This document shows positions 28,686-34,242 of a stretch of DNA of 53,531 nt, piece by piece (positions within the stretch are counted from its first letter, which is position 1; the number at the start of each line of letters is the position of its first letter). This DNA comes from an uncultured bacterium (GTDB taxonomy: Bacteria > Bacteroidota > Bacteroidia > Chitinophagales > CAIODY01), in assembly GCA_903857255.1 (NCBI GenBank), contig CAIODY010000005.1:1-53531 (forward strand), written 5' to 3'. Position numbers and translations under genes: made by a program. A model generated the notes under the pieces. The model was given only the letters and a program-made list of their open reading frames with translations. It searched no databases and was not told where the DNA came from.

Positions 28686-29981
28686 CTAATCAAACTTCCT
28701 ATGCTGATACCAATTGCCACTTACTGTAATGCCAAAATTGAAACGGAAAAATCCTTCATTTACTAAATTAGATGAAGTACTGCCACGAGAACCTGTTTCA
28801 AAATTCAAATTCAAAAACATAAACATTGGGCGATTCTCTTCGGCTTTAAACGCAATAGGAATGCTAGCTCCAGCACTGAATGAATAAAAATTAAATTGCT
28901 GACCTCTTAAATAAATAGGGTCTAAACCATAGTTGAATCCAAATTTATAAATGGTTCTTTTGAATATTTGTGCTGATAATGGCTCGGGGCAGAAATAGCC
29001 GCCCACAGCAAACTTCCAGCTTTTTCTTAAAGAATCTTGTTGTTCAAAATTTCTGTATTGACTCCAATCTTGTTGTTCAAATTGCGCTCCCAACGACCAT
29101 TGCCGACCTTGTACCCATTGAATACCAAATGAAATTTTTGATGGGATTTTTATTTTACCAGAAGTGTCAGGAATATTTTTGATGGTATCAACTGTGCTTT
29201 CATAAACTCCACCATAGCTGCTAAACCTGCGCCACATATCAGTTTCACCAGTTTGCATAATTACAGCCGCACTATACGTAGCACCAACAATAATTTTATT
29301 TTCTTTTCCAATCGGAATCACATATTGCAAACCTGCACCCCAACAAAATCCGCCAGGGTTTTGCACTCGATAATTTTCAGTGCCTAACGCATGTGCTGAA
29401 TCAGGAAAGAAAATTTGCGAATCATAAAATAATCTGCCAAACATATAACCGCCTTGAACACCAACGTACAAGTTTTTGTATTTAACGCCAGTTCCTAATT
29501 GAAATTTATAAAGATTTCCACTTCCACCAAAAACTTGTTTATCAACCAGCGGCGTATCAGTTGCAGAGCCATTTTGTGAAACATGATAAGCTACAGTGCT
29601 GTAAGGCAAAAGACTAAATCCAACACCAATTTTTGTTTTTTTACCACTATGAATTAATGACCCCAAGCCAATATATGATGGCTGCATATTGAAATATCTA
29701 GCGCTATTACTACCATCACTCAAAGTATTCCAACGCATTTGAACAGCAGCATCGAAGGCAGCTGATTTTGGCGCAAGTGAAGCATACGATGCAGGATTAT
29801 CAGGGTTTTGCATCCATTCACTTTGAAATGCGGTGCTTAAATTTCCCATGCCCATTGTGCTTTGAAATTGCATGGGCTGCAAAGAACCAACGCCATAGCG
29901 GCTGTAAGGCATATTTTCTTGAGCGAAAATTTCAGAAATAAAAATTATGGTAAAAAGAGAAAGCGAAAATATTTTTTTCAT
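28686..29981 (-). CDS. Outer-membrane beta-barrel protein encoded next to coaX
   Basis: I use the ATG at 29981 (431 residues); it overlaps the coaX stop as TGATG. The signal peptide (1-~20, ending IFAQ) is followed by NMPYSRYGVGSLQPMQF and MGMGNLSTAF, then long beta-strand repeats (GVGFSLLPYSTVAYHV, YVGVQGGYMFGRLFYD, IIVGATYSAAVIMQTG), as in FadL/OMPP1-type barrels of Bacteroidota. The cargo is unknown. It is coupled to coaX by overlap, a recurrent neighbourhood in the phylum, though the proteins have no obvious shared role. Confidence 0.8.
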   Translation of the reverse strand: MKKIFSLSLFTIIFISEIFAQENMPYSRYGVGSLQPMQFQSTMGMGNLSTAFQSEWMQNPDNPASYASLAPKSAAFDAAVQMRWNTLSDGSNSARYFNMQPSYIGLGSLIHSGKKTKIGVGFSLLPYSTVAYHVSQNGSATDTPLVDKQVFGGSGNLYKFQLGTGVKYKNLYVGVQGGYMFGRLFYDSQIFFPDSAHALGTENYRVQNPGGFCWGAGLQYVIPIGKENKIIVGATYSAAVIMQTGETDMWRRFSSYGGVYESTVDTIKNIPDTSGKIKIPSKISFGIQWVQGRQWSLGAQFEQQDWSQYRNFEQQDSLRKSWKFAVGGYFCPEPLSAQIFKRTIYKFGFNYGLDPIYLRGQQFNFYSFSAGASIPIAFKAEENRPMFMFLNLNFETGSRGSTSSNLVNEGFFRFNFGITVSGNWYQHRKFD

Positions 29982-30727
29982 CAATGAATTTGCGAATGAT
30001 TTAAAATTGAATTCAACCCAATCAATGTAAGATTGGGGGCGGCAAAGATGCGATTTTTTAAGTGCTTTTTCAAAAAGTCTGCATCGCCGCCTGTGATAAC
30101 GATTTGCAAGCCAGAATATTTTGCTTCGTAGTTTTTTATTGTGCCTTCAATTTCTGCAATCGTTCCGTTGATTACACCAGTTAAAATGCTAGTTGAAGTA
30201 TCAGTTCCAATCAACTGTTTAATTTCTTTTTTTGAAACCAACGGCAATTTTTGTGTGAAATGATGCAATGCTTTAAAACGCATTTCCAATCCTAATGAAA
30301 TGCTTCCACCCAGATATTCTTGTTTTGAATTCACAAAATCAAAAGTGATGCAAGTGCCACAATTGATGAGGAGTAAATTTGTTTTAGGAAAAAAACTTAA
30401 AGCGCCACAACTCACTGCCAATCGGTCTTTGCCTAAAGTTTCAGGCGAAGCATATTTGTTTTTGAGAGGAATTTTTGTGTGATGATTTAATTCTGTGAGT
30501 TGGGTTTTCTCATTCAAAAAAGCCAAAATATTTTTCGGTGTTTTGATGACTGAGCAAATAATTGATGAAGCAATTAAAGGAAATTTTTTGAAGATTTTTT
30601 TCAAATCATTCAAAGGAAATTTTTCAAACGCTTCGCTAAAAATTATTTCATCATTTTCAAACACAGCACATTTGATTCGGCTGTTGCCAAAATCAATACA
30701 AAGCTTGAAATGTTGATAATTGCTCAA
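29981..30727 (-). CDS. coaX: Type III pantothenate kinase
   Basis: The 248-residue enzyme phosphorylates pantothenate, the first step of CoA synthesis. DFGNSRIKCAVF (12-23) is the phosphate-binding motif, GKDRLAVSCGA the second conserved segment, NCGTCITFDFV (~120-130) contains the catalytic Asp, and ITGGDADFL closes the ASKHA fold. The only possible start is TTG at 30727: the preceding in-frame stop is that of ridA, and there is no ATG or GTG before the first motif. The start lies 9 nt after the ridA stop, so it is translated from the ridA mRNA. Confidence 0.93.
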   Translation of the reverse strand: MSNYQHFKLCIDFGNSRIKCAVFENDEIIFSEAFEKFPLNDLKKIFKKFPLIASSIICSVIKTPKNILAFLNEKTQLTELNHHTKIPLKNKYASPETLGKDRLAVSCGALSFFPKTNLLLINCGTCITFDFVNSKQEYLGGSISLGLEMRFKALHHFTQKLPLVSKKEIKQLIGTDTSTSILTGVINGTIAEIEGTIKNYEAKYSGLQIVITGGDADFLKKHLKNRIFAAPNLTLIGLNSILNHSQIH

Positions 30728-30736
30728 TTTAAAAGA

Positions 30737-31117
30737 TTATAAAACTGCAGTTACTGAAATTTCAACATTCACATTTCGAGGTAAAGTTTTCACCGCCACA
30801 GTTTCACGAGCAGGAAAATCAGCAGAAAAATAACTGCCGTAAATTTCATTCACTTTCGCAAACAAACTCATGTCGCTCAGAAAAATTGAAGTTTTCACAA
30901 TATTGCCAAAACCAATTCCAGCTTCATCCAATAATGCCTTGATGTTTGCCATCACTTGTTTGGTTTCGGTTTCCAAATCAGCCATCATCAATTCGCCAGT
31001 CTGCGGATGCAAAGCAATTTGTCCGCTGCAAAATAAAAATCCGTTGGCTTTCACAGCCTGACTATATGGACCAATCGGCGCAGGAGCATTGGTTGTGTTG
31101 ATTATTTGTTTGTTCAT
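30737..31117 (-). CDS. ridA: RidA-family imine/enamine deaminase
   Basis: The 126-residue protein is a standard RidA/YjgF member that hydrolyses reactive 2-aminoacrylate-type intermediates from PLP enzymes. Key residues are Arg104 in FPARETVAV (binds the carboxylate) and Glu119 near the C-terminus. APIGPYSQAV and GFLFCSGQI are family signatures. It is the first gene of the ridA-coaX-barrel transcript, with a TACTTTTG promoter box at 31135-31142 and a leader of only about 12 nt. Confidence 0.97.
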   Translation of the reverse strand: MNKQIINTTNAPAPIGPYSQAVKANGFLFCSGQIALHPQTGELMMADLETETKQVMANIKALLDEAGIGFGNIVKTSIFLSDMSLFAKVNEIYGSYFSADFPARETVAVKTLPRNVNVEISVTAVL

Positions 31118-31134
31118 TTTTGAAAATGTTTTTG

Positions 31135-31142
31135 CAAAAGTA
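31135..31142 (-). promoter_or_regulatory. -7 promoter element (TACTTTTG) of the ridA operon
   Basis: Exact TAnnTTTG match on the minus strand, 17 nt upstream of the ridA ATG. Confidence 0.6.
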
Positions 31143-31205
31143 ATTAGAACGCAGTCATTTTTTTTGACTGAAATTTATTTAGCTTTGTAATAAATATTTT
31201 GAGCC

Positions 31206-31445
31206 ATGGATATTCAAACACAAAAATTGCAGTTGATTGATAAAATCCTACACATGAGCGATAGCAATCGTTTGGCGGTGATTGATGACGCCATTAGTGC
31301 CGAACCAATGACACAACAATCAACATTGGATAACAAAGCAATTCAAAAAATTTACCTCGAAAAAATCAGCCATGCTTTAGAAGATATAAAAGCTGGCAGA
31401 GTAAAATCGCACAACGATTTAAAAAACGAAACCAATGGCTGGTAG
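31206..31445 (+). CDS. Putative antitoxin of a ParE-type toxin-antitoxin pair
   Basis: The 79-residue protein is helical and acidic-basic mixed (KLQLIDKILHMSDSNRLAVIDDAIS, YLEKISHALEDIKAGRVKSHNDL). It has no obvious DNA-binding ribbon-helix-helix. Its stop lies inside the next gene (11-nt overlap), the classic antitoxin-first layout. A TAGCTTTG box at 31180-31187 is a candidate promoter. The assignment rests mostly on the partner toxin. Confidence 0.75.
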   Translation: MDIQTQKLQLIDKILHMSDSNRLAVIDDAISAEPMTQQSTLDNKAIQKIYLEKISHALEDIKAGRVKSHNDLKNETNGW

Positions 31446-31758
31446 TGTGTTGGATGTGAAATGGACGGATGAAGCCACTAAAGATTTAAGAACAATTTTC
31501 GATTATTATCTTCAAAACGCATCACATTCGGTTGCTCAAACTATTATTAATCGGCTGCAAGAAAAAGTGGAGGTGCTTTATTTATCGCCCCACATTGGGC
31601 AAGCAGAGCCACTTTTGGAAGATTTGAATTTGGATGTTCGTTATTTAGTAGAAGGCAACTACAAGATTTTCTACAACTATTTTGATGGCATTATTTTCAT
31701 ACTTTTCATTTTTGATTGCCGACAAAATCCTGAAAAAATTATTCAACTTTTTAGGTGA
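31435..31758 (+). CDS. RelE/ParE-superfamily toxin
   Basis: The 107-residue basic protein has the ParE-type fold pattern: VKWTDEATKDLRTIFDYYLQNAS (N-terminal strand and helices), LYLSPHIGQAEPLLEDLNLDVRYLVEGNYKIFYNYFDG (central sheet with the conserved R and Y), and the C-terminal FDCRQNPEKI, close to the DxRQxPxxL end of ParE proteins. Members inhibit gyrase or cleave mRNA on ribosomes; which applies here is unclear. It is translationally coupled to the upstream antitoxin. Confidence 0.88.
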   Translation: MAGSVLDVKWTDEATKDLRTIFDYYLQNASHSVAQTIINRLQEKVEVLYLSPHIGQAEPLLEDLNLDVRYLVEGNYKIFYNYFDGIIFILFIFDCRQNPEKIIQLFR

Positions 31759-31795
31759 AAATAACCTCCCACCAATTACACAGATAACGCTGATT

Positions 31796-32272
31796 TTATT
31801 TCTTTTGAGTTGTTAATGCTACAACAATTCCTGTGACTTGCAAATGAAAGGTACTATTGTATGAATTTGCATTACCCTGACAATTACCACCAACAAACTT
31901 TCCAATTCTTCCTTGTGTAGAATAAAATAATTCAACTTTACTTGAATTGCCAGAAGGCACAATCTCACCAGTGTTCCATACATCTGTTAAGCAACCACAG
32001 GGGCATCTTACATTAGTTAATAATAATGGTTTGTTTCCAATGTTTGTAAAACTAAATGAGTGTTTTGCTTGTTTTCCTTCAATTACATTTCCAAAATCAT
32101 AGGTGGTTGTATCAAAATGAATATAACCACAATTCCTCAAAATTGAATCCGCTTTTTGTATGGAGCAATGTTGTTCTTTGCAAACAATTTCTAAATTTTG
32201 TTTTGAAATTGTTTGTGCAAAAATTTTGCATTGCATAATCAACAAAAAAATAAAGAGCAGTTTTATTTTCAT
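31796..32272 (-). CDS. DUF1573-family secreted protein
   Basis: The 158-residue protein has a signal peptide (1-19, ending IFAQ), a short Cys-bearing linker (KEQHCSIQKADSILRNCGY), and an Ig-like DUF1573 domain (~50-150) with FDTTTYDFGNVIEGKQAKHSFSFTNIG and NVRCPCGC, where the paired cysteines are the usual family motif. The role is unknown. It is a short, probably periplasmic member and is monocistronic here. Confidence 0.88.
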   Translation of the reverse strand: MKIKLLFIFLLIMQCKIFAQTISKQNLEIVCKEQHCSIQKADSILRNCGYIHFDTTTYDFGNVIEGKQAKHSFSFTNIGNKPLLLTNVRCPCGCLTDVWNTGEIVPSGNSSKVELFYSTQGRIGKFVGGNCQGNANSYNSTFHLQVTGIVVALTTQKK

Positions 32273-32397
32273 TTTGTTTGGATTTTATTTCCATAAAGTT
32301 CATTCAATAAATTATTCCACAAAAATTCTATTTGCAAAGAAAAAGTTATTGAAACGCAACGGCTGTTTTATAACTTCGCAAAAAATAAAAATCATTA

Positions 32398-32574
32398 ACC
32401 ACATAGTTACATAGGTCGCATAGTTTTAGAACAAAAAATTGATGAATAACTAAACGAAGTATTCTATGTTACACTATTCTGAAGCACTAATAAATTTAAG
32501 GTTTCATAGATGCTTTGCATTCACATAGAATTCTGTAAAAATAAATTTCTATGAAAACTATGTCGCTATGTGGT
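32398..32574. repeat. Cluster of CATAG/CTATG motifs in inverted array
   Basis: Nine CATAG or CTATG pentamers fall within 177 nt: three forward at 32402, 32410 and 32419, one reverse at 32464, two forward at 32505 and 32524, and three reverse at 32549, 32558 and 32566. The ends form an imperfect inverted repeat, ACCACATAGTTACATAG on the left against CTATGTCGCTATGTGGT on the right. It occupies most of the 320-nt gap between the DUF1573 gene and hutU; the remainder (32273-32397) shows no gene. It looks like a dispersed intergenic repeat, not a hutU leader. Confidence 0.75.
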
Positions 32575-32592
32575 GAAAATAAAAAAATAAAA

Positions 32593-34242
32593 ATGACAAC
32601 AACCAAACGCATCATCAAATCGCCAACTGGCAACACTTTAACTTGCAAAAATTGGATTTCGGAAGCAGCATTCCGAATGTTACAAAACAACTTAGACCCT
32701 GATGTGGCGGAACGTCCCGAAGATTTAATTGTGTATGGCGGCAGAGGAAAAGCTGCAAGAAATTGGGAAGCCTACGATAAAATAATTGAGTGCTTAATCA
32801 ATTTAGAAGAAGACCAAACGCTGATTGTGCAAAGCGGTAAACCCGTTGGTGTGCTGCGTTCGCATAAAGATGCACCACGAGTTTTGATTGCCAATTCTAA
32901 CCTCGTTGGCAATTGGGCAAACTGGGATGTGTTTACCGAGTTAGAGAAAAAAGGCTTGATGATGTATGGCCAAATGACCGCTGGAAGCTGGATTTACATC
33001 GGCTCACAAGGCATTGTGCAAGGCACTTACGAAACTTATTTGAGTTTGGCGAATCAACATTTCAAAGGATCATTAAAAGGCACACTCAATGTTACTGCAG
33101 GTTTGGGCGGCATGGGTGGCGCACAACCTTTGGCAATTACGATGAATGAAGGTGTTTGCTTAGCTGCTGATTTGGAAGCTTGGCGCATTCAAAAAAGAAT
33201 TGAAACACGTTACATTGATAAAATGACACAAAGCATTGAAGAAGGTGTGCAATGGGCTTTGGAAGCGAAAGCTAAAGGCGAAGCAGTTTCAATTGGTGTG
33301 GTGTGTAATGTGGTTGATTTGTTGCAATATTTAATCGATAAAAATATTCCGATTGATACACTCACCGACCAAACATCGGCACACGATGAATTGATTGGGT
33401 ATTTCCCCGAAGGCTTATCGGTGGCTGAATCCAACGTGTTGAGAGAAACGAATCCTGAAGAATATAGAAACAGAAGTTGGGACACAATGGCGAACCATGT
33501 ACGCCAAATGTTGGAGTTGCAAAAACGTGGTGCTATCACTTTTGATTATGGCAACAATCTTCGAGGGCAAGCCAAAGACAAACGTGGAGTGCTGAATGCG
33601 TTTGACTTTCCGGGTTTTGTGCCAGCATATATTCGTCCGCTTTTTTGTGAAGGCAAAGGACCATTTCGTTGGGTGGCGTTGAGTGGCGACCCCGAAGATA
33701 TTTACACCACCGACCAGGCGATGAAGGAATTATTTCCTGATAACAAAGGCTTGCATCGCTGGCTGGATATGGCTCGTGAGAAAATTGCGTTTCAAGGTTT
33801 GCCTGCACGTATTTGCTGGATTGGAATGGGCGACAGAGAAAAAGCGGCTTTAAAATTTAATGAATTGGTTCGTGAAGGAAAAGTGAAAGCGCCTATTGTA
33901 ATTGGTCGTGACCATTTAGATACAGGTTCTGTGGCTTCGCCAAACCGTGAAACAGAAGCCATGATGGATGGCAGCGATGCCGTGGCTGATTGGCCAATTT
34001 TAAATGCGTTGATTAATACCGCAGGTGGTGCAAGTTGGGTTTCGTTGCATCATGGTGGTGGTGTGGGCATGGGTTATAGCATTCATGCAGGCATGGTGAT
34101 TGTGGCTGATGGAACAGAAGATGCTGAACGCCGCTTACGCCGTGTATTATTCAACGACCCAGCTATGGGTGTGATTCGCCATGCTGATGCTGGTTATGAA
34201 ATTGCGAAAGCAACGAGTAGAAAGTTTGGGTTGGATGTTTAA
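32593..34242 (+). CDS. hutU: Urocanate hydratase
   Basis: The 549-residue enzyme converts urocanate to imidazolonepropionate in histidine degradation, with tightly bound NAD+. The start is the ATG at 32593 because the upstream in-frame ATG (32551) lies in the repeat cluster. Motifs include [29 protein letters not shown] (NAD-binding), [12 protein letters not shown], the [12 protein letters not shown] segment with the conserved Cys, and [20 protein letters not shown]. Length is normal. hutH, hutI and hutG are not in the window, so it stands alone between a repeat and small secreted-protein genes. Confidence 0.97.

Follow-up and report, generated by a model that had tools for sequence, protein, structure and literature searches.

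The cluster of CATAG/CTATG motifs directly upstream of the urocanase gene hutU in the analyzed stretch of DNA (the window, 53,531 nucleotides long, contig C5 of a genome of 2.97 Mb that is 96.9% complete) is a single member of a dispersed family of MITE-like mobile elements. The mobility of the element is well supported, and so is its relationship to a complete unit that has the same CATAG arms and carries a gene of the GxxExxY family, the window element being a gene-less relative of this unit. The explanation we favor, and consider probable, is that the nuclease predicted to be encoded by such units, or a complex holding it, acts on the arms of the gene-less copies in trans. The CATAG arms and the GxxExxY gene taken together suggest a little-known kind of jumping DNA.

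Structure of the element and its position upstream of hutU

The element occupies 183 bp, positions 32395–32577 (no strand assigned), as defined by homology to a copy in a congener; the borders 32398–32574 given in the preliminary description contain the cluster but are slightly too narrow. Its left arm (32395–32423, plus strand) consists of three units, TTAACCACATAG-tta-CATAG-gtcg-CATAG, and so does the right arm (32549–32577, minus strand), which reads inward on the minus strand as TTCACCACATAG-cga-CATAG-tttt-CATAG. These arms form the outer inverted repeat that had been noticed earlier; it is 29 nt long, 79% complementary, and its halves are 125 nt apart. Inner CATAG/CTATG copies, on either strand, start at 32464, 32505, and 32524 (32464–32528), and a short palindromic stretch, ATGCTTTGCAT, at 32510–32520 is also present in the congener copy (G001:C57).

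The nine motifs, at positions 32402–32570, are indeed far above chance, as had been claimed: in 300 dinucleotide shuffles, at most five motifs fell into a 177-nt stretch, vs. nine in the element, while the window as a whole is not enriched in CATAG/CTATG (51 observed, 65 expected). No open reading frame (ORF) of at least 60 amino acids lies inside the 183 bp, and thus the element is short, gene-less, and bounded by terminal inverted repeats, as is characteristic of MITEs. The folding check suggested in the preliminary description gave a positive result, the single strand folding better than shuffled sequences (RNA, z −3.8; DNA, z −3.3), which is what inverted arms lead one to expect. An Rfam scan of the window yielded no family at the gathering score except tRNA elsewhere in the window.

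The hutU gene extends over 32593–34242 on the plus strand. Translation is likely to begin at 32593; the ORF list gives an ATG at 32551, which falls within the element and probably does not serve as the hutU start, because most relatives align only from about residue 10–20 of that ORF. With its location immediately in front of hutU and a fold better than that of shuffled sequences, the element might be a regulatory leader or operator of this gene, but the comparison with hutU relatives contradicts this: among 80 surveyed loci, 74 of which had at least 200 nt upstream, the cluster (three motifs and a CCACATAG arm) was found upstream of hutU in none of the 74. Three motifs within 400 nt upstream occur in L037, L055, and L089, none with the CCACATAG arm, and the single CCACATAG upstream of hutU in L057 belongs to another short repeat and has no second CATAG with it. 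With 20 places in the genome beside various genes, a full-length copy elsewhere in a congener, and arms that show no covariation, we rejected the element as a regulator of hutU, a role that now seems extremely improbable. The other short tandem repeat, that of L057 (CCCACATCTAACAT), occupies positions 2900–2970, immediately before hutU.

The hutU locus closest by DNA identity (88%) is L028, whose genome, G149, was treated as one with G001, the two having yielded identical places and scores. In L028, the RidA and hutU genes adjoin, being 82 nt apart in the alignment, and the space between them holds neither the ParE gene nor the DUF1573 gene nor the element. The region with the ParE toxin, the presumed antitoxin, and the DUF1573 gene (31143–32300, no strand assigned to the region as a whole) is thus absent there, and we take it to be an event separate from the element. 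The preliminary description spoke of a toxin–antitoxin pair; the ParE toxin (31435–31758) was confirmed, but only its position marks the preceding ORF (31206–31445), which matches no Pfam family, as an antitoxin. Similarly, the view that the neighbors are accessory holds for the ParE pair and the DUF1573 gene, but not for the RidA side (28687–31142), which is common to L028. The sequence separating the DUF1573 gene from the element (32301–32394, plus strand) is weakly alignable with the hutU 5′ leader of the congener, 29 out of 2000 simple shuffles aligning as well when 32281–32394 is compared with the L028 leader. Hence, the hutU leader may be where the element inserted, a placement that this alignment does no more than suggest, and any effect of the element on hutU would be incidental.

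Dispersal and presence/absence of CATAG elements

The pattern CCACATAG-N2-12-CATAG has 26 matches in the genome of the window, grouped as 20 places, vs. one match for the reversed pattern used as a control, so the cluster is not unique. Among 149 genomes of the order, the abundance is patchy, many genomes being at the level of the reversed control. These counts, the patchiness, the occupied and empty sites described below, and the hutU relatives all support the earlier suggestion of a dispersed, possibly mobile repeat family of Bacteroidota.

A census of arms at the 20 places (exact patterns within about 220 nt, plus reading by eye) yielded eight gene-less two-armed copies, the window copy included, one two-armed copy with a gene (on contig C43), and 11 one-armed copies. 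In most of the latter, the arm is followed by a tail that is much alike, with a small hairpin such as TTCGCAAGCGAA in nine out of 11. The window element is matched along its entire length by the G001:C57 copy (193 columns, 68%, E 1e-18) and, more weakly, by copies on contigs C10 (E 1e-5) and C108 (E 5e-4) of its own genome, all these E-values referring to the fetched loci and not to a whole genome. By eye, the flanks of the G001:C57 copy differ from those of the window copy, as is expected of dispersed MITE copies, and the best 20 flank matches listed all come from the right flank and all lead to hutU loci. By a simple ORF rule, placeable copies look intergenic; they stand beside various genes, often tens of bases or less from a gene end, with overlaps of at most 23 nt that go with ORFs running into the element, e.g., that of hutU. 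Tandem arrays of CATAG elements with a period of about 98–126 bp were seen at L355, L353, and L407 (genomes G090, G076, and G006, respectively).

The preliminary description proposed a check for insertion/deletion sites, and congeners indeed differ in whether a given site is occupied by a CATAG element. The C43 unit is absent in both G001 and G002; in the empty-site alignment of its locus, L264, query positions 2024–2545 are missing in G002, and 2019–2546, in G001. A second CATAG-armed GxxExxY unit, in G001:C15, is shared with contig C130 of the window's genome up to the contig end and is absent in G002. Two one-armed copies on contig C91 are absent in G001, and the window copy is absent at the hutU site of L028/G001. 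Same-site presence/absence, a hallmark of MITEs, is thus observed at five sites: C43, C15/C130, two sites on C91, and the hutU site. The changes at these sites are probably gains; at the C43 site, two of the three congeners lack the unit. No clean target-site duplication is readable at the empty sites, because the borders are A+T-rich; a 6-nt overlap in the G002 alignment for C43 was not confirmed by eye.

Several known systems are comparable. REP/REPIN sequences are scattered intergenic palindromes thought to be mobilized in trans by a small nuclease-like transposase, RAYT. The CATAG elements resemble them in being intergenic, palindromic, and present in many copies, and the genome has one gene with a Y1_Tnp match, so a REP/REPIN-like element moved by a RAYT (Y1 transposase) might be considered. 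We regard this as highly unlikely: the sole Y1_Tnp match of this genome (L026:1340–2060) is framed by its own palindromes, by eye unlike CATAG, and no CATAG arms occur at this gene in the stretch read; moreover, instead of a single REP hairpin, each CATAG arm consists of tandem units, and these two-armed elements are associated with another nuclease fold and with no Y1 tyrosine transposase. The BrickBuilt element of Porphyromonas gingivalis, with 19 copies in one Bacteroidota genome, has 23-nt tandem repeats between a leader and a tail and small inverted ends (PMC4596501). It is similarly short, gene-less, and intergenic with inverted ends; the CATAG element differs in that its arms themselves are tandem 8–9-nt units and its related gene encodes a predicted PD-(D/E)XK nuclease rather than a known transposase.

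The GxxExxY unit and inverted arms of tandem units

On contig C43, CATAG arms enclose, within 503 bp from ACCAC to GTGGT, a single gene. It encodes a protein of 134 amino acids that belongs to the GxxExxY family (TIGR04256, E 8e-37; PF13366, PDDEXK_3, E 5e-36), for which, to our knowledge, no function has been stated. The window element shares its ends with this unit. The mobile-family reading of the preliminary description is supported; the link to GxxExxY nuclease genes had been missed there.

Residues Glu30, Asp70, Glu80, and Lys82 are invariant in 39 out of 39 GxxExxY sequences, and we read them as the predicted catalytic residues of a PD-(D/E)XK active site. In the structure model of the protein (pLDDT 96.7), the best match among solved folds is SSO0001 (Z 9.3, rmsd 4.5, 101 aligned residues), which we take to be a Cas4; matches below it, at Z less than 8, comprised many nucleases and some unrelated proteins and were left unused. 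The likeness to Cas4-type nucleases is confined to the fold, as the cas4 profile matches are weak and the sequence falls far below the cas4 cut-off; a PDB sequence search with the GxxExxY profile gave no match. With this modeled fold and the catalytic D…ExK pattern, the C43 gene product is a predicted PD-(D/E)XK nuclease. GxxExxY genes are present in 103 out of 149 genomes of the order and in 59 out of 118 genomes drawn from the phylum. In the genome of the window, contig C12 (3424–3773) carries a GxxExxY gene broken by internal stops, with intact copies elsewhere. The matches listed in the open-access literature (subscription journals and preprints were outside the scope) describe neither tandem-unit arms of GxxExxY genes nor CATAG elements, and the listed matches to six short arm sequences look like chance, judging by titles and the beginnings of abstracts. 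The name GxxExxY occurs in two papers of this literature. A GxxExxY domain is mentioned next to a reverse transcriptase in one paper (PMC8934634).

Arms of this kind are not limited to C43. For the arm test, 450 nt were taken to the left and to the right of a profile match, and the best inverted match between these flanks was scored, with flanks of different loci as the control and a threshold of at least 15. In the first sample of 30 GxxExxY loci, four of which were left out as lying at contig ends, 17 out of 26 reached this score vs. 15 out of 208 mismatched pairs, with none out of 24 when the flanks were moved outward by 600 nt; among hutU loci, the count was three out of 45. The enlarged sample of 90 genes, hand-picked among the matches listed (six for nearby CATAG matches, 14 from CATAG-rich genomes, and the rest down the list), lost two to short flanks and had inverted flanks in 57 out of 88 cases, vs. 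35 out of 1056 mismatched pairs, the other 31 being below the score; without the six CATAG-adjacent picks, the count was 55 out of 82. Finally, in the draw from the phylum, all loci of which lie outside the order, 16 out of 28 had inverted flanks (one more locus was left out at a contig end) vs. 20 out of 336 mismatched pairs and none out of 28 further out. The arms of GxxExxY genes are composed of tandem 7–9-nt units of several types: CATAG, CAAAG/CAGAG/CTAAG, CAGATT/CGAATT, and TGTCTGAA.

Intervening sequences of 23S rRNA, with the S23/IVP ORF, are a further system for comparison: a small ORF inside a selfish inserted sequence, within 23S rRNA. Genes of the 23S_rRNA_IVP family from the same order (L166–L195; 27 of the 30 loci used), which encode four-helix-bundle proteins, also have inverted arms in 19 out of 27 cases, vs. 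21 out of 216 mismatched pairs and none out of 27 further out, and here too the arms are tandem units, 7–8 nt long, such as TTAGTAG/TTAGTAT. The CATAG elements differ in being intergenic, and none of the two-armed ones read holds an IVP gene. As IVP genes do not encode nucleases and yet are similarly armed, the architecture does not need a nuclease. In one paper, IVP is treated as a relative of Avd (PMC10053308).

Unit type, copy number, and the proposed mechanism

The similarity of GxxExxY proteins and the k-mer similarity of their arms are correlated (Mantel r 0.62, 0 out of 5000 permutations; 54 loci with arms at a score of at least 13, from 71 readable proteins), also for distant pairs only, under half of the self-score (r 0.26, 0 out of 5000). 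When 74 proteins on a tree are labeled automatically (24 RAG, 18 none, 14 TCTGAA, nine CATAG, seven GATT, two ambiguous), the CATAG label requires two changes vs. 8.6 in shuffles (0 out of 500), and the nine CATAG proteins together with L211, whose arms by eye are CATAG/CATAAG, form one branch with support 100/96 that spans six host families. Among the best 30 relatives of the C43 protein, CATAG units within 250 nt occur on both sides in 11 cases, on one side in ten, five of which carry the CCACATAG arm, and on neither side in nine; some relatives without two-sided CATAG have CACAAAAG, CATAAG, or CTAAG units, and in several at 57–64% identity, CACAAAAG or CATAAG units, or none, were seen. Thus, the unit type appears to follow the GxxExxY protein tree, more loosely in the wider sample, although such tracking can come from linkage alone.

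At the genome level, the nuclease subfamily was defined as proteins scoring at least 137 bits against the C43 protein, with the cut-off placed by eye where the list of matches had a gap; it is present in 25 out of 149 genomes. At least five CATAG matches were found in 13 out of 25 genomes with the subfamily vs. four out of 124 others (Fisher p 5e-9), or vs. four out of 78 with other GxxExxY genes only (p 7e-7), both p-values being too small, as genomes of one genus are not independent. A gene's own arms add a few matches; with the threshold raised to eight, the counts are 11 out of 25 and three out of 124. Four out of 17 CATAG-rich genomes (at least five matches), G031, G063, G070, and G075, lack a subfamily gene.

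Pairing of the arms does not seem to be what is maintained. In 19 hand-picked two-armed elements (of 24 entered, five with an arm deviating from the pattern were dropped), agreement of the first spacers is no higher inside an element (27 out of 58 bases) than among different elements from the same genome (55 out of 112); for G000 and G001 alone, the figures are six out of 21 and 49 out of 126. RNAalifold on ten two-armed copies showed only seven invariant pairs in the outer arm, and neither covariation nor compensatory changes. The unmatched spacers and the lack of compensatory change favor the units as putative protein-binding sites at the ends: it is the units, rather than arm pairing, that look like the conserved feature. 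The same data bear on the idea of an RNA-level element like the 23S rRNA intervening sequences, whose arms would pair in the transcript and allow RNase III to remove it, making the insertion harmless. Inverted arms can pair, many places are close to gene ends, and the IVP genes, named after the intervening sequences, have arms of the same build; given spacers unmatched within elements and no compensatory changes, we nonetheless consider this very unlikely.

The mechanism we propose is that the GxxExxY nuclease, or a complex holding it, would recognize the units in the arms and act on or cut the element ends, and that gene-less copies would be moved by the nuclease in trans; the window copy would have inserted immediately before hutU, possibly within the leader of this gene. 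That the nuclease moves the CATAG element is what we infer from the associations above. Several observations count against this explanation: the CATAG-rich genomes without the subfamily, the looser tracking of units in the wider sample, the arms of IVP genes, the 31 out of 88 loci below the score, and the 11 one-armed copies out of 20, which plain two-ended transposition leaves unexplained. The one-armed copies and tandem arrays suggest that replication or repair may contribute to the spread as well. Room is thus left for an alternative in which the element, mobile and of a kind with the GxxExxY units, is moved by something else, such as host recombination, replication slippage, or an unseen transposase, with GxxExxY as cargo. 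Such an arrangement would agree with the same kind of arms at genes that encode no nuclease, with the replication-based spread to which one-armed copies and arrays point, and with the four CATAG-rich genomes lacking the gene. On the other hand, an active site invariant in 39 out of 39 sequences and the link between the subfamily and copy number are easier to understand if the gene acts in trans, and we consider movement by another enzyme rather unlikely.

Extending action of the nuclease in trans beyond CATAG, we tentatively put forward, as a possibility somewhat more open to doubt than not, that GxxExxY genes may be the enzymes of a large undescribed IS-like class widespread in Bacteroidota, with lineage-specific ends of unit arrays read by the cognate nuclease, and with each lineage spawning gene-less MITEs, that of the window among them. 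If small mobile elements do have GxxExxY genes as their enzymes, a single explanation would cover numerous hypothetical proteins of Bacteroidota as well as intergenic repeats so far unaccounted for; and if ends made of swappable short units are natural pairs of nuclease and site, recognition would be directly testable.

Some GxxExxY genes have unusual surroundings. In three genomes (G174:C9:91044, G200:C1:72354, and G184:C22:338277), GxxExxY matches lie within an 883-aa open frame; at the one such locus read, L385, a carB-like ORF (by eye) ends close by, and the long frame is possibly a readthrough or an insertion beside a gene end. At two hutU loci, a GxxExxY gene lies directly upstream of hutU (L030:2430–2882, family confirmed; L035, by eye), and an inverted CCACAGATT pair separates it from hutU; these are other elements of this kind next to the same gene.
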